Shown: positions 2,570-17,016 of the stretch, piece after piece
Numbering within the stretch: the stretch's first letter is position 1
How the letters are laid out: every line of letters begins with the position of its first letter
Source of the DNA: Candidatus Methylomirabilota bacterium
Lineage (GTDB): Bacteria > Methylomirabilota > Methylomirabilia > Rokubacteriales > CSP1-6
Direction of reading: 5' to 3'
DNA length: 38,877 bases
Assembly: GCA_035936835.1 (NCBI GenBank)
Contig: DASYVT010000092.1
Location: 1-38,877 of the forward strand
Program-made: the position numbers and the translations under genes
Notes under the pieces: generated by a model
What the model was told of the DNA's origin: nothing
The model's database searches: none
The model's input: only the letters and a program-made list of their open reading frames with translations

Positions 2570-3120
2570 GGCTTTTCGATTGGGTTGCGGCGCACGGTGG
2601 GCAGGCCGATCTTGATGAAGGCGTGCTTCTCGGCCGCGTGGCAGCCAGTGCAGGCGGCGCGCAGCCCCTCGATCCGCTGCTTGAAGAGCGCCTGGTCCTT
2701 CTTCTTGATCGCCTCGCCGACCTGCGGCAGCGTCGTTTTGAGGACGAACGTCTCCGCGCTCTGGCGGTACTCCGGCCGCCGCTCGAGCCCGAGCTCGATC
2801 GCCTTACCCAGCTCCTCGTACATGTGCTCGGCGTAGCCCCAGTTGCCGTCCACCCCGCCCCAGTACATTTCGCCGTAGCGGTAGGCAACCTCGGCCATCG
2901 TCGTCTCGAAGCCGCGCAGCTGACGCTGGATCGCCTCGGTGCGGGCCGCGGGGGCGAGCTTCGCGAGCCACCCGGCCTTCTCGGGCGCCGCGGCCTGCTG
3001 GTGCTGGTGCGTCTGCGCCGTCGCCGCGGTCCAGGCGGCCGCGGCCCCCGCCCCGACAAGCGCGGCGGCGACGAGCACGGCGAGGAGCGAGCGTCGCAGC
3101 GATGTCGTGCCTCGGTTCAT
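2566..3120 (-). CDS. Periplasmic cytochrome c with C-terminal CxxCH (c'-like)
   Basis: The 184-residue product has an N-terminal signal or anchor segment (about residues 11-30), then a His/Gln-rich linker and a mainly helical body. The single heme-attachment site, Cys157-Thr-Gly-Cys160-His161, is near the C-terminus, which is the layout of class II (c'-type) cytochromes. No Met axial ligand can be assigned with confidence. It should act in the periplasm as an electron carrier or gas/metal-responsive heme protein. The ATG overlaps the stop of the upstream HAD gene (ATGA), so the two are translationally coupled. It lies back to back with the copper/redox operon, and a link to that operon is plausible but unproven. 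Confidence 0.8.
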   Translation of the reverse strand: MNRGTTSLRRSLLAVLVAAALVGAGAAAAWTAATAQTHQHQQAAAPEKAGWLAKLAPAARTEAIQRQLRGFETTMAEVAYRYGEMYWGGVDGNWGYAEHMYEELGKAIELGLERRPEYRQSAETFVLKTTLPQVGEAIKKKDQALFKQRIEGLRAACTGCHAAEKHAFIKIGLPTVRRNPIEKP

Positions 3121-3854
3121 GACTGCTCCTTTCTGATCGTTCCCCCAGCCGTTCCCAAGATGAGCCCGGTCGCCTCGAGGAGATCCCGGGCCGTGACGCA
3201 ATCGCGCGGGCCCCAGAAGCCGCGCGGGTCGAGGAGGATGGCGCCGAGACCCGCGGCGCGGGAGCCCAGCACGTCCACGGAGTAGAGGTCGCCGACGTAT
3301 ACGGCCTCGTGGGCGGCGACGCCCGCCTGCTCGAGGCCCAGGCGGAAGATCTTCGGATCCGGCTTCTCGACGCCGACGACGGCCGAGTCGATGACGAAAT
3401 CGAGCGCGTCCCCGAGCCCCGCGCCGGCGAGGAGCGCACGCGCCCACCCGTTGGAGTTCGACACCACGCCCGCCACGAGGCCGGCCGCCTTCACCCGAAG
3501 GATCGCCGCCAGCGCGTCCGGGTCCGCGACGTTGAAAAGCCCGGCGGGCGCGTTGTAGCTCCGGCGGAAGCCCGCGGCGGCCTCGATCTCGGTAGGCGCA
3601 GTGATGCCGAGACCTTCCAGTAGGTAGGCGAGGTAGGAGTCCTGGGCCGTGCGCCCCTCGGTCGAGGCGCCGCGCGCGAGGTCGGCGTCGAGCCGCACCC
3701 GGGCGCGAAGCTCCGCCTCTTCGATCGCCTCGATCGAGACCTCGCGACCTCGGCTCTTCAGGTGGTCGGCGATCGCCGGGTAGTTCATCCGCATGAGCGT
3801 GTTGCCGGCATCGAAGAGGACAGCGCGGGGCCGGCTGGGAGCGGGAGGGGTCAT
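3117..3854 (-). CDS. HAD-superfamily hydrolase
   Basis: This 245-residue protein belongs to the haloacid-dehalogenase superfamily, probably a subfamily-I phosphatase. Motif I is LFDAGNTL near residue 14, with the nucleophile Asp present and the usual second Asp replaced by Asn, a common variant. Motif II is the VSNSN segment, the motif III Lys is in EKPDPKIF, and motif IV is YVGDLYSVD. ATG 3854 is chosen over upstream alternatives because it lies six bases after a perfect TATAAT and immediately precedes conserved sequence, which points to a leaderless message. The substrate is unknown. The gene is coupled to the downstream cytochrome by an ATGA overlap. Confidence 0.85.
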   Translation of the reverse strand: MTPPAPSRPRAVLFDAGNTLMRMNYPAIADHLKSRGREVSIEAIEEAELRARVRLDADLARGASTEGRTAQDSYLAYLLEGLGITAPTEIEAAAGFRRSYNAPAGLFNVADPDALAAILRVKAAGLVAGVVSNSNGWARALLAGAGLGDALDFVIDSAVVGVEKPDPKIFRLGLEQAGVAAHEAVYVGDLYSVDVLGSRAAGLGAILLDPRGFWGPRDCVTARDLLEATGLILGTAGGTIRKEQS

Positions 3855-3860
3855 ACCCCC

Positions 3861-3868
3861 ATTATAAT
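3861..3868. promoter_or_regulatory. Palindromic bidirectional -10 element (ATTATAAT)
   Basis: ATTATAAT is its own reverse complement, so it gives a perfect TATAAT on both strands. On the plus strand TATAAT ends six bases before GTG 3875; on the minus strand TATAAT ends six bases before ATG 3854. The two starts are therefore exactly symmetric about the element (10.5 bases each side), and both transcripts would begin on the start codon. No good -35 is seen on either side. Bidirectional promoters with a shared symmetric -10 are a known bacterial phenomenon; the use here is inferred. Confidence 0.65.
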
Positions 3869-3874
3869 GATGCG

Positions 3875-4078
3875 GTGATGGCCTCACGCCTACTCCTCGC
3901 TCTCCCGCTCCTCCTGTCCGCCGCGCCCGCTTCGGCGGACCACGGCGGTCCTCTCGCATCGGCGCCGATGAGCCCCATCACCGTGGCCCTGCTGGCGGGC
4001 GGCCTGGCCTTCGTCACCGTCCTGCTGCTGGTCCTGATCGTGCGACTCCTCGCGCGCCCCGCGCACAGGCCCGAATGA
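3875..4078 (+). CDS. Small exported single-pass membrane protein, first gene of the copper/redox operon
   Basis: This is a 67-residue product (66 if the adjacent ATG 3878 is used). It has a signal peptide ending Ala-Ser-Ala, a short His/Gly segment beginning Asp-His-Gly-Gly, a hydrophobic span at about residues 36-59 and a basic tail. After cleavage the mature N-terminus would carry His at position 2, a possible copper ligand, though that is inference. I do not recognise the family. It is translationally coupled to copC by a four-base ATGA overlap and sits directly after the shared -10 element, so it is likely the leader gene of the operon, perhaps an assembly or anchoring subunit. Confidence 0.72.
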   Translation: MMASRLLLALPLLLSAAPASADHGGPLASAPMSPITVALLAGGLAFVTVLLLVLIVRLLARPAHRPE

Positions 4079-4470
4079 CCAGGGGCCGCGCGATCCTGTT
4101 CGCCGCCCTGGCCGGGGCCGGCGCGCTCTCGGCTGTCGGGCTCTCCCCCGGCGCCGCGCCCGCGCATTCGCTGCTCGTGCGCTCCGAGCCCGGACGCAGC
4201 GCGACGGTCACCCGCGCGCCCGAGCGCGTCAGGCTCTGGTTCAGCGAGCGGATCGAGCCCGCCTACGCCAAGCTGTCGGTCTGGAGCGAGGCCGGCACGC
4301 AGGTGGATGCGGGCGACGCCGCGGTCGATTCGAATGACCCGACCCTCCTTTCGGTGAGCACGCCCAACCTCGGCCCCGGGCGCTACACCGCGCGGTTCCG
4401 CGTGCTGTCGGTGGACGGCCATGTCGTCGAGTCGAGCTTCGCCTTCACCGTCAAGGCCGCCGCCCGATGA
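4075..4470 (+). CDS. copC: CopC-type periplasmic copper-binding protein
   Basis: This 131-residue protein is a single CopC domain behind a signal peptide. Cleavage after Ala-Pro-Ala would leave His31 as the mature N-terminus, and the Asp114-Gly-His116 pair near the C-terminus completes the known CopC Cu(II) site of N-terminal His, Asp and His. The beta-sandwich pattern is present: HSLLVRSEP, then VRLWFSERIEP, then YTARFRVLSVDGHVV. It should bind copper in the periplasm and pass it to the CopD-domain protein encoded next, with which it overlaps by four bases (ATGA). The length and residues fit the family well. Confidence 0.9.
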   Translation: MTRGRAILFAALAGAGALSAVGLSPGAAPAHSLLVRSEPGRSATVTRAPERVRLWFSERIEPAYAKLSVWSEAGTQVDAGDAAVDSNDPTLLSVSTPNLGPGRYTARFRVLSVDGHVVESSFAFTVKAAAR

Positions 4471-6485
4471 GCGGGGTCGGCGTCGGGATCCGCGCGCTCT
4501 CCACGGGCGCCGGCCTCCTCATCGTCGGCGTCATTGCCATGAGTCTTCTCGCGGGCCCGAGCGACAAGCCGACGGCGCGCCGGTGGCACCGACGCCTCGC
4601 GCGCTCCACGCGCTGGCTCGCCGCGCTTCTCCTCGTCTCGGGCGTGGCGGCGCTTGGATGGCAGGTCACCGTCGTGACGGGCCGGGTCGACGGCGCCGCC
4701 GACGGCACGGCGTGGCTGCGCCTCCTCGGGGCGACGCAGTTCGGGACGGTGTGGCTCCTTCGCCACGCGATCCTCCTGCTGCTGGCGGCCCTCGTCCTTC
4801 TCCGTGAGAGTGACGAGTCGCCTCCCGACTGGCTCGCCTGGCGTATCGAGGCGGGACTCCTCGCCGCCGCGGGCGTGGGCCTATCGGCATGGGCCGGTCA
4901 CGCGGTAGGGGTGGATCCCGGCAGCGCACTGCCCGCGCTCGTCAACGCCGTCCACCTGGTCGCCACCGGCGCCTGGCTCGGGGCCTTGCCGGCCCTCGCC
5001 CTGCTCCTGGTCGCGGCCTCGCGCGAGGCCGGCGCCGACTCGCGGCCCTTCGCGGTGCTGGCCACGCGCCGCTTCTCGACCTGGGCGCTCGCCGTGATGA
5101 CGGTCATCGTCGCCACCGGCGTGTGGAATGCCTGGAACGAAGTCGGCGGCGTCCCGGGCCTCGTGGGCACGGGCTACGGCCGGCTGGTCCTGCTCAAGGT
5201 CGCGCTGCTCCTCCCCGTGCTGGGGCTGGCCGGCTGGAACCGCGGCAGCCTGCTGCCTCGCCTGGGGGGCGACGGCTCCACCGTGGGCCGGCCCGCCATG
5301 AGGAGCCTCGCGGGTTTCGTCGGGGTCGAGGCCATCGTCGGCGCGGCGCTCGTGGTCGTGGCCGCGGTGCTGGCGTTGACGCCACCGGGCCGCCATATGA
5401 CACCCGAGTGGCCCTTCAGCTTCCGCCTGGCCCCCGACGTCACGTGGAACTTCCCCGGCGTCAAGACCCGCGTCTTCATCGGCGCCCAGACCGCCTTCGT
5501 CGGCGTGCTGGTCTTGGTCGCGGGCTGTCTCCTCCGGCGCTGGCGCCCGCTCATGCTTGCCGGCGCGGCGGTGCTCGTTGTCGCGGGGGCGCAGCAGGCG
5601 CTGCCACCGCTCGCCGTCGACGCCTACCCGACGACCTACCGGCGGCCCGCGGTCCCCTACAACGTCGCCTCGGTCGCTCATGGGTCCGCCCTCTACCGAA
5701 TCCACTGCGCCGGCTGCCATGGCCCGACGGGCCGCGGGGACGGACCTGCGGCGGCGGGGCTGCTTCGGCGACCGGCCGACTTGACCGCGCCACACACCAA
5801 TGACCACACAGCCGGCGACATCTTCTGGTGGCTCACCCACGGCGTCGGCATCGTCATGCCGGGCTTCGGCGTCCAGCTCTCGGAGGACGGGCGCTGGGAC
5901 CTGATCAACTTCCTTCGCGCGCTGTCGGCCGGCGAAGCGGCCCGCAGTCTCACCGACATCGACGAGCCCGAGCGCCCGCGCCTGGCGGCCCCCGATTTCA
6001 CCTTCGCCACGGGACCCGCGCAGATGAGCCTCAAGGACTACCGCGGCCGGCAGCCGGTCTTGCTCGTGCTGTTCACCCTGCCCTCGTCGCGCGCACGGCT
6101 CAGCGAGCTCGCCCAGGCCTACTCCGATCTCCGGAGCTTCAACGCGGCCGTCATCGCCGTGCCCATGGACGGTGGAGAAAAAATCCTGTCGCGCATCGGG
6201 GCATCTCCCCGCATCCTGTTCTCCGTGGCCACCGAGGGCGCGGCAGAGATCGTCTCGACCTACGCCCTGTTCCGGCGCACGCGGGCTCCCGAGGGCGCCC
6301 TGCCCAACTCGCCCATGCCCGCCCACATGGAGTTCCTGATCGATCGCTCGGGCTACTTCCGCGCGCGGTGGCTGCCGGGGGGACCTTCGCCGGGCTGGTC
6401 GGACATCAAGGTGCTGCTGGCCGAGATCCAGACGCTCAACCAGGAGACCGCGGTCGCGGCGCCTCCCGACGAGCACGTGCACTGA
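4467..6485 (+). CDS. CopD membrane domain fused to cytochrome c and a redoxin-like domain
   Basis: This 672-residue protein has three parts. Residues 1 to about 390 are a polytopic membrane region of the CopD (PF05425-like) type with His-rich helix ends, preceded by CopC as usual. Residues about 395-490 are a class I cytochrome c with Cys414-Ala-Gly-Cys417-His418 and the probable distal ligand Met464 in VMPGF. Residues about 505-660 resemble an AhpC/TSA or SCO-like thioredoxin fold (APDFTFATGPAQMSLKDYRG, VLLVLFTLPSS), but the redox CxxC is replaced by Pro-Ser-Ser-Arg, so it cannot do ordinary dithiol chemistry. The likely role is copper transport or delivery coupled to electron transfer at the membrane. 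It overlaps both neighbours. Confidence 0.85.
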   Translation: MSGVGVGIRALSTGAGLLIVGVIAMSLLAGPSDKPTARRWHRRLARSTRWLAALLLVSGVAALGWQVTVVTGRVDGAADGTAWLRLLGATQFGTVWLLRHAILLLLAALVLLRESDESPPDWLAWRIEAGLLAAAGVGLSAWAGHAVGVDPGSALPALVNAVHLVATGAWLGALPALALLLVAASREAGADSRPFAVLATRRFSTWALAVMTVIVATGVWNAWNEVGGVPGLVGTGYGRLVLLKVALLLPVLGLAGWNRGSLLPRLGGDGSTVGRPAMRSLAGFVGVEAIVGAALVVVAAVLALTPPGRHMTPEWPFSFRLAPDVTWNFPGVKTRVFIGAQTAFVGVLVLVAGCLLRRWRPLMLAGAAVLVVAGAQQALPPLAVDAYPTTYRRPAVPYNVASVAHGSALYRIHCAGCHGPTGRGDGPAAAGLLRRPADLTAPHTNDHTAGDIFWWLTHGVGIVMPGFGVQLSEDGRWDLINFLRALSAGEAARSLTDIDEPERPRLAAPDFTFATGPAQMSLKDYRGRQPVLLVLFTLPSSRARLSELAQAYSDLRSFNAAVIAVPMDGGEKILSRIGASPRILFSVATEGAAEIVSTYALFRRTRAPEGALPNSPMPAHMEFLIDRSGYFRARWLPGGPSPGWSDIKVLLAEIQTLNQETAVAAPPDEHVH

Positions 6486-14019: not shown

Positions 14020-15309
14020 ATGCCCGACTTCCTCCAGTTCGGCTTCATGCAGCGCGCGTTCGTGGCGGGCGCCGTCATGGCCGTGGTCTGCCCGCTGATC
14101 GGCGTCTTCCTCGTGCCGCGTCGGCTCTCCCTGATTGCGGACACGCTGGCGCACGTCGCGCTGGCGGGCGTGGCGCTCGGGCTCCTCGTGGGCGCCTCGC
14201 CGGTCCTTGGCGCCCTCGTCGTGACCGTGGCCGGCGCGCTCGGCATGGAGCGGCTCCGATCCCGCGGGGCGCTCCAGGGGGACGCGGCGCTGGCGGTCTT
14301 CCTCTCCGGCGGCTTCGCGCTGGCCGTGGTGCTGATCAGCCTCGCGCGCGGTTTCAACGCCGATCTCTTCGCCATCCTCTTCGGCAGCATCCTGACGGTC
14401 AGCCCCGCGGACGTCTGGCTCATCCTGGCCTTGGGCGCCGTGGTGGTGACGACCATCCTGCTCTCCTACCGGCAACTCTTCGCCATCACGCTCAACGAGG
14501 ACCTGGCGCGGACGAGCGGCGTCCCGGTCACCGCGCTCAACATGCTGCTGACCGTGCTGACCGCGCTCACCACCGTGGTCGCCATGCGCATGGTGGGCGT
14601 CCTGCTCGTCAGCGCCATGATCGTGATTCCGACGCTCACGGGCTTCGCCCTCGGCCGGAGCTTCCGCCGCGCGACGGCCCTGGCCATCGCGATGGCGCTC
14701 GCGTCAGTCGGAATCGGCCTCACCGCCGCCTACTACCTGCGCCTGGCCGCCGGCGGCGCCGTGGTGCTGACGGCGCTCCTGCTCTTCGCATTGGCGTCGC
14801 TCGCCCGGCGCGTGCCGTGGGGCCCACGCGCGCGCCTCGCCGCCATCACGCTGCTCTGCCTGTCCGTCGCCGGGGGCGCCTCGGCGCAGGACGGCGAGTG
14901 CAAGCGCTGGCGCGCGGCCTTCGCGTCCATGCCGATCCGCATGGTGACAGTCCAAATGGGCGCCAAGACCGTCGCCATCCGGGTGAAGGTGGCCGAGAAT
15001 TCCGAGCAGGCGGCGGCCGGCTTCCAGTGCTCGACTCCGCAGGAGATCCAGAACACGCTCATCCTTTTCGACTTCGGCCGCGAGATCAACACCCAGTTCC
15101 ACATGCAGAACGTCCCGGCCGCCCTCGACATCGCCTTCGTGAAAGCGAACGGCACCATCTTCTCCATCCTCAAGATGGACCCGAGCCCCACCGCGCTGTA
15201 CGGCCCGATGGGCGACTTCCGCTTCGCGCTCGAGGCCCGGGCGGGCTTCTACGAGAGCCAGGGCGTCCGCCAGGGAGAAGCGCGCCTGCTGGTCCCGGCC
15301 GCCAAATAG
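14020..15309 (+). CDS. ZnuB-like permease fused to an exported DUF192 domain
   Basis: The 429-residue product joins two units. Residues 1 to about 262 are a typical eight-helix ABC-3 zinc permease (LSLIADTLAHVALAGVALG near the start, MRMVGVLLVSAMIVIPTLTG later). Residues about 270-288 form a hydrophobic stretch ending Gly-Ala-Ser-Ala-Gln, which looks like a signal peptide that now serves as a ninth helix. Residues about 290-429 are a DUF192 (PF02643) domain, with QFHMQNVPAALDIAFV, then KMDP, then a closing G-E-A-R-L. The frame is continuous. An in-frame GTG at 14812 could be a second start, but no ribosome site precedes it, so a true fusion is favoured. DUF192 would face the periplasm. Confidence 0.86.
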   Translation: MPDFLQFGFMQRAFVAGAVMAVVCPLIGVFLVPRRLSLIADTLAHVALAGVALGLLVGASPVLGALVVTVAGALGMERLRSRGALQGDAALAVFLSGGFALAVVLISLARGFNADLFAILFGSILTVSPADVWLILALGAVVVTTILLSYRQLFAITLNEDLARTSGVPVTALNMLLTVLTALTTVVAMRMVGVLLVSAMIVIPTLTGFALGRSFRRATALAIAMALASVGIGLTAAYYLRLAAGGAVVLTALLLFALASLARRVPWGPRARLAAITLLCLSVAGGASAQDGECKRWRAAFASMPIRMVTVQMGAKTVAIRVKVAENSEQAAAGFQCSTPQEIQNTLILFDFGREINTQFHMQNVPAALDIAFVKANGTIFSILKMDPSPTALYGPMGDFRFALEARAGFYESQGVRQGEARLLVPAAK

Positions 15310-16209: not shown

Positions 16210-16956
16210 TCACCGGCTGGCGCAGATCTCGGCCGCAATCACCCGGGGGTCCTTGCATCGAGCATTGCTCGTGGCCCGCAAGATCGTGACCTCCCGAAAT
16301 CCTTGCTCTCGAAACTCGTCCAGGAAGGCACCGCCTTCCTTGGCCCCGGCAATTCAGGCAAACCACTCGGCTTCGGTGAACGTGCCCGATGTGGTCACGG
16401 CCTCCTGCGCGATGAGCTCTGCAGCATAGACGACGCCACCAGGCCGCACCACCCTCGCGAGCTCCCGAAAGATCTGGGTGCGGGCCGGGTTCAGGTTGAA
16501 GATGCCGTTGACGAGCGCCACGTCAATCGACCCGGGCTCCAGCGGGAGGTGCTCCGCATCTCCGCGACAAAAGGTCACGTTGATCCCGAGTGCGGCCGCG
16601 GCCTGTCCCGCCCTGGTCAGCATGGAGTCGCTGAAGTCGATCCCGATCACCCGGCCGGTCGGTCCCACCCGCCGCGCCGCAATCAGGCTGTCGAGGCCTG
16701 CCCCACAGCCGAGGTCAAGTACCCGGGCGCCGGGCGGGAGAGAGGCGAAGACGGCCACGTTGGAGACCCCGGCAAAGGCCTCGACCGCCATGGCCGGCAA
16801 GCTGTCCAGAAGTTCGGATGGGTATCCGAGTCGCTCGGCTAGGACTCGTCCAACGGGGAAGGCGTGCTTTTCCTCGGGCCGTGCCGCGGCTGCGGAATAG
16901 GCCCGCTGGACGGCGCTTCGCAACTGCAGGCCCCGATCAGCGGGAAGTCGGACCAA
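16210..16956 (-). CDS. ArsM-like SAM methyltransferase, probable selenoprotein (Sec at in-frame TGA)
   Basis: The gene reads from TTG 16956 (AGGGGGG site seven bases upstream) for 200 codons to a TGA at 16356-16354, then stays open for 47 more codons to TGA 16212-16210. The first part is a class I SAM methyltransferase with motif I VLDLGCGAGLDS (about 79-90), GIDFSDSML, and VNGIFNLNP. The frame after the TGA reads IAGAKEGGAFLDEFREQGFR and on, which is the normal closing region of this fold. The TGA follows TEAEWFA, where ArsM-type arsenite methyltransferases carry a conserved substrate-binding Cys before a small-residue-Gly-Ala segment. Translation as selenocysteine at 201 gives 248 residues. 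A SECIS-like hairpin follows. The substrate could be arsenite or another thiophilic metalloid. Confidence 0.82.
16322..16340 (-). promoter_or_regulatory. Bacterial SECIS-like hairpin downstream of the in-frame TGA
   Basis: On the minus strand AGGAAGGC (16340-16333), loop GGT (16332-16330) and GCCTTCCT (16329-16322) form a perfect eight-base-pair stem with a three-base loop beginning with G. The loop starts 22 bases after the TGA. As I recall it, the bacterial SECIS model asks for a 3-14 base loop with a G in its first two positions, a stem of 4-16 pairs and a loop 16-37 bases after the UGA; all are met. It lies inside the coding sequence, as bacterial SECIS elements do. Confidence 0.72.
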
Positions 16957-17016
16957 AGGGCCACCCCCCTATACATCCAAAACGGCGGCGAGCCCAGGAA
17001 CAGGCTATCGTCGATA

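Follow-up and report, generated by a model that had tools for sequence, protein, structure and literature searches.

A predicted stand-alone selenocysteine methyltransferase of the ArsM fold in Methylomirabilota

An interrupted methyltransferase frame

A methyltransferase-like gene on the minus strand of the window (the whole 38,877-nucleotide stretch of a Candidatus Methylomirabilota contig analysed here) is interrupted by an in-frame TGA, which raises two questions: whether this codon is read as selenocysteine (Sec), and what the resulting enzyme might do. The frame (16210-16956) opens at a TTG codon (16956-16954), preceded by a possible Shine-Dalgarno sequence, AGGGGGG (16964-16970, minus strand), runs for 200 codons to the TGA at 16356-16354 and continues for another 47 (16213-16353) before a TGA stop at 16212-16210. 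A sequence-only reading of the locus had described the frame in these terms, and re-reading agreed exactly, including the motifs U-I-A-G-A and F-R-E-Q-G-F-R-E-V. It had also anticipated truncation at 200 residues by gene prediction, and standard gene calling does stop at the TGA.

The readthrough product of 248 residues, with Sec at position 201, is a class I SAM methyltransferase (Pfam Methyltransf_31, E 3e-27), and its AlphaFold (AF2) model has a pLDDT of 92.1 and a pTM of 0.91. In this model, the part beyond the TGA forms a helix (208-217) followed by two strands (221-229 and 239-247). The expectation that the fold would lose its last strands without the 47 codons is thus borne out, but the closing helix that the same reading had described is not, the model ending in the two strands.

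Conservation of the TGA and of the codons after it

Two orthologues in a sister genome (97% and 77% identity) both carry TGA at the Sec codon, and orthologues in six further genomes (~64-67% identity) keep it as well. More distant Sec homologues occur in other families of the phylum, with the TGA kept down to ~40% identity. A protein scan of the genome contigs detected only four distant relatives, and all matches among plasmid records were below 60% identity. The sister genome also holds a third copy, a fragment at a contig end (G001 contig 65, 106448-106672), 95-96% identical over 75 residues.

For codons 202-248, most of the pairs in which dS was usable gave dN/dS values of 0.04-0.20, resembling codons 1-200; a value of 0.36 came from one near-identical pair differing at two sites only. 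Coding therefore continues past the UGA under purifying selection, and the UGA sits where homologues have Cys. Homologues ending naturally at this position had been named as a possible refutation, but they have U or C at this point and extend beyond it. Given that independent assemblies share both the TGA and 47 codons under purifying selection, the TGA column is beyond chance.

These data bear on the simplest alternative, that the TGA is a true stop and the product either a 200-residue protein or a decayed copy. Standard gene calling ends there, and damaged-looking copies do exist. One such copy is a Sec-type homologue with TAA at the Sec codon and one broken pair in its hairpin (L088; G061 contig 265, 3404-4168). 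Neither selA nor a tRNA-Sec was found in its source genome, which is 76% complete, and its TAA may represent decay, an error or an odd form of recoding, which are not distinguishable. Set against a true stop are the presence of the 47 codons, under selection, in all intact homologues, the helix and two strands with which they complete the modelled fold, and the retention by independent species of TGA rather than of random stops, so we consider a true stop very unlikely. The idea that sequencing or assembly turned a TGC or TGT into this TGA is for practical purposes refuted, because independent assemblies share the TGA across the whole range of identity given above. A matching hairpin, which Cys homologues lack, also accompanies the TGA, and we leave this explanation next to no probability.

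Selenocysteine machinery of the genome

The source genome (4.1 Mb, 99.94% complete) encodes the components needed to decode UGA as Sec. SelB (373 bits) and SelA (584 bits) adjoin each other on contig 235, which also carries a tRNA-Sec with anticodon UCA. SelD (348 bits) is itself a selenoprotein, with an in-frame TGA in the site CAGUASKM. The genome check proposed in the sequence-only reading thus returned selA, selB, selD and tRNA-Sec. The use of selA as a contrast between genomes with Sec and Cys forms was dropped, because 56 of 60 relatives have this gene.

A hairpin specific to the Sec homologues

Downstream of the UGA lies a candidate bSECIS apical hairpin, AGGAAGGC-GGU-GCCUUCCU (16322-16340, minus strand), whose GGU loop begins 21 nt past the UGA and whose 8 bp stem has an energy of -15.8 kcal/mol. 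It falls within the published bSECIS model, which specifies a loop of 3-9 nt with G in the first two positions, an upper stem of 4-16 bp, a distance of 16-37 nt from the UGA and an energy of <= -7.5 kcal/mol (PMC13188914). Within the window alone the hairpin is unremarkable: its energy does not stand out against shuffles (z -0.5), nor does the hairpin against synonymous shuffles (P 0.33), and an Rfam search of the window gave nothing above threshold. The case for the hairpin therefore rests on comparison.

The best-energy hairpins of Sec and Cys forms did not differ (P 0.32); what told the two forms apart was a perfect stem at the right distance. All 21 Sec homologues first compared have a perfect stem of 7-10 bp and a loop of 3-4 nt with an early G, located 17-23 nt after the UGA, whereas 21 of 21 Cys homologues have a stem of only 1-5 bp (Mann-Whitney P = 9e-9, with rows that are not independent). 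In a wider set of Cys homologues, 3 of 71 reach 6-7 bp; two of these have their loop at +37, the third at +24. Among the ten sequences of the window's clade, stem codons 206-208 and 210-211 show little or no variation at their third positions, while loop codon 209 uses GGT, GGC, GGG and GGA and the neighbouring codons vary. A subgroup whose loop lies at +17 shows compensatory changes at pairs 2, 3 and 6: both partners are exchanged (C-G to G-C, T-A to A-T), and pairing is kept.

One further possibility is that an unusual tRNA recodes the UGA as Cys. Cys homologues do have Cys at this column, but the genome has the whole standard Sec set and the gene a SelB-type hairpin, and we regard Cys recoding as highly improbable. 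The selenoprotein reading is instead supported by the Sec genes, the kept TGA, the dN/dS values and the hairpin confined to Sec forms. SelB and tRNA-Sec would decode the UGA at 16356-16354, aided by the hairpin, to give the 248-residue protein. As far as sequence comparison can tell, the case for selenocysteine at position 201 is strong, and the gene very probably encodes a selenoprotein, a class I SAM methyltransferase with the ArsM fold; this level of confidence covers selenoprotein and fold, not the substrate.

Relationship to ArsM and the arsenic ligands

The top 11 Foldseek matches in the PDB all come from ArsM (E 1e-16 to 1e-14). When the protein is aligned by sequence with 5eg5, and residues are counted from the printed alignment, position 201 corresponds to CmArsM Cys224, in agreement with the earlier claim that the TGA replaces a conserved ArsM Cys, and Gly151 (codon 16504-16506, minus strand) takes the place of the As(III) ligand Cys174. 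We tallied the ligand columns in matches from 95 genomes of the phylum, which comprised 27 complete Sec and 71 Cys homologues. The Cys174 column holds Gly in 27 of 27 complete Sec homologues, whereas in the Cys homologues it is Cys in 70 of 71 and Ser in the other. An N-terminal CC-type motif was found in none of the 27 complete Sec homologues; a CC or CxC motif was present, in the stretch read, in 63 of the 71 Cys homologues, the remainder possibly being cut short. Among the CmArsM ligands Cys72, Cys174 and Cys224, only Cys224 therefore has a counterpart in the window protein, and this counterpart is Sec.

Mutational data indicate how much these residues matter. CmArsM C174A and C224A have no activity on arsenite or MMA, C72A is inactive on arsenite only, and the equivalent of C174A in human AS3MT, C156S, likewise acts on neither arsenite nor MMA; dimethylarsenite is described as binding a single cysteine (PMC3877260). 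Without a Cys174 equivalent and the N-terminal cysteines, the Sec proteins do not have what ordinary arsenite methylation requires. The As(III)-binding role implied in the sequence-only reading does not find support in its present form, since none of the complete Sec homologues examined has the partner ligands.

It is nevertheless conceivable that the protein is a Sec version of an ordinary arsenite methyltransferase, converting As(III) to MMA and DMA. By both sequence and structure, ArsM enzymes are its best relatives of solved structure, Sec201 falls on the Cys224 ligand, and NCBI names related fusion families arsenite methyltransferases. Apart from the Gly at the Cys174 position, the lack of a detected CC motif and the inactivity of the C174A and C156S mutants, this proposal has to contend with a score of 157.4 bits against the cut-off of 263 of NF008823 (arsenite methyltransferase ArsM), with a canonical Cys ArsM that the same genome already encodes on contig 99 (343.9 bits in the same model) and with the absence of arsenic genes among the annotated neighbours in the window. 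We consider it unlikely.

Known relatives

The presence of Sec in ArsM-like methyltransferases is already catalogued (PMC13188914), and the idea is accordingly less novel than first implied. Table 1 of that work, with reference to Fomenko et al. 2007, places a Sec 'arsenite methyltransferase' with the motif UxxG, WP_011987699.1, among the experimentally verified cases; the work also notes 63 predicted selenoproteins for one Methylomirabilota genome (PMC13188914). Likened by motif description, WP_011987699.1 and the window protein are both ArsM-related with Sec in U-x-x-G, in the window protein as U-I-A-G, but the family of the former is filed under NF008823, below whose cut-off the latter falls. 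NF041537 (ArsM_AhpD_UU), NF041536 (ArsM_DUF2284_UU) and NF047649 (MTase_UXPK_star) are among the best-scoring models for the window protein and related Sec proteins, and the Sec site motif of these families is likewise UxxG (PMC13188914). Their members are multi-Sec proteins with a second, C-terminal Sec domain, whereas the window protein is a methyltransferase alone and scores far below the respective cut-offs (170 of 510, 157 of 575 and 158 of 460 bits). With canonical ArsM and AS3MT (NF008823; CmArsM 4fr0 and 6cx6; CrArsM 5evj), it has in common the fold, the SAM site and the Cys224 position, but it has Sec for Cys224 and lacks the Cys174 equivalent and the N-terminal cysteine pair. What our comparisons appear to add is a stand-alone line below the fusion-model cut-offs, the hairpin evidence and the rule that Sec goes with Gly, although this rule may have been described earlier.

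Two Sec methyltransferases found elsewhere (L074 1529-2791, and L073) carry a C-terminal extension that by eye resembles a zinc ribbon with a TusA-like domain after it.

Evolution of the Sec-Gly type

In a quick tree, the Sec-Gly proteins fall in two groups. This split prompted the idea of two independent origins, but a single Sec-Gly group is not rejected (p-AU 0.54). It follows that the count of 27 of 27 does not represent 27 independent events, and the Sec-Gly pairing may be one old event retained since.

Gene neighbourhoods

The neighbours of the Sec methyltransferase genes, in the window and at the homologue loci, include no consistent partner and point to no agreed function. In the window, a single ORF (14020-15309, plus strand) fuses an ABC-3 transporter permease with a DUF192 domain. 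In two genomes, LysR-type regulators that are 74% identical to each other lie divergently beside a Sec methyltransferase (L064 1339-2292 and L079 6932-7936), and, likewise in two genomes, sigma-70 family (ECF-like) factors adjoin Sec methyltransferases of the LAGULAGTL type (L182 802-1428 and L185 60-590); L182 also has a DsrE-like gene between two Sec methyltransferases. An ABC ATPase and a UPF0014 permease, together FetAB-like, are encoded directly upstream of the Sec methyltransferase at L077 (4857-6505), G049 contig 105 and G055 contig 75, with selA ~8 kb away on these contigs. At L177, a DUF1326 gene and a PpoB2 copper-chaperone gene (~3092-4471) follow the Sec methyltransferase, and the locus holds a partial second one, of which only the C-terminal part is present, with the fragment WFAUIAGAK in the same frame.

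Proposed function

Judging from the ligand columns, the protein probably methylates something other than arsenite, or works by another route. Sec201 would be the only conserved soft ligand of this ArsM-fold enzyme. A selenolate at the Cys224 position could hold a soft substrate beside the methyl group of SAM or, alternatively, could itself become a short-lived intermediate there. With the partner thiolates lost, single-ligand binding of a substrate is likelier than three-ligand binding of arsenite; a dimethylated arsenical would be one example, a different soft metalloid or chalcogen species another. Ordinary arsenite methylation would then fall to the canonical ArsM encoded elsewhere in the genome. 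As a guess, the substrate may be a metalloid other than arsenic, a chalcogen or a metal, somewhat less probably an arsenical, and less probably again something else.

We tentatively propose, at a confidence a little short of even, that the proteins combining Sec with Gly at the Cys174 site form a separate enzyme line of the ArsM superfamily, in which a single selenolate, rather than a three-thiolate cage, holds or relays the methyl acceptor, and which is not an arsenite methyltransferase and coexists with ordinary ArsM in the same genomes. Most known selenoenzymes carry out redox work, and a methyltransferase with selenium at its substrate site would therefore be unusual. Ordinary gene calling truncates stand-alone Sec methyltransferases at the UGA, and they reach the cut-off of no curated model tested. 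The strict split between Sec-Gly and Cys-Cys proteins would make it possible to test directly what selenium contributes in the ArsM fold and whether the label 'arsenite methyltransferase' suits their Sec relatives.
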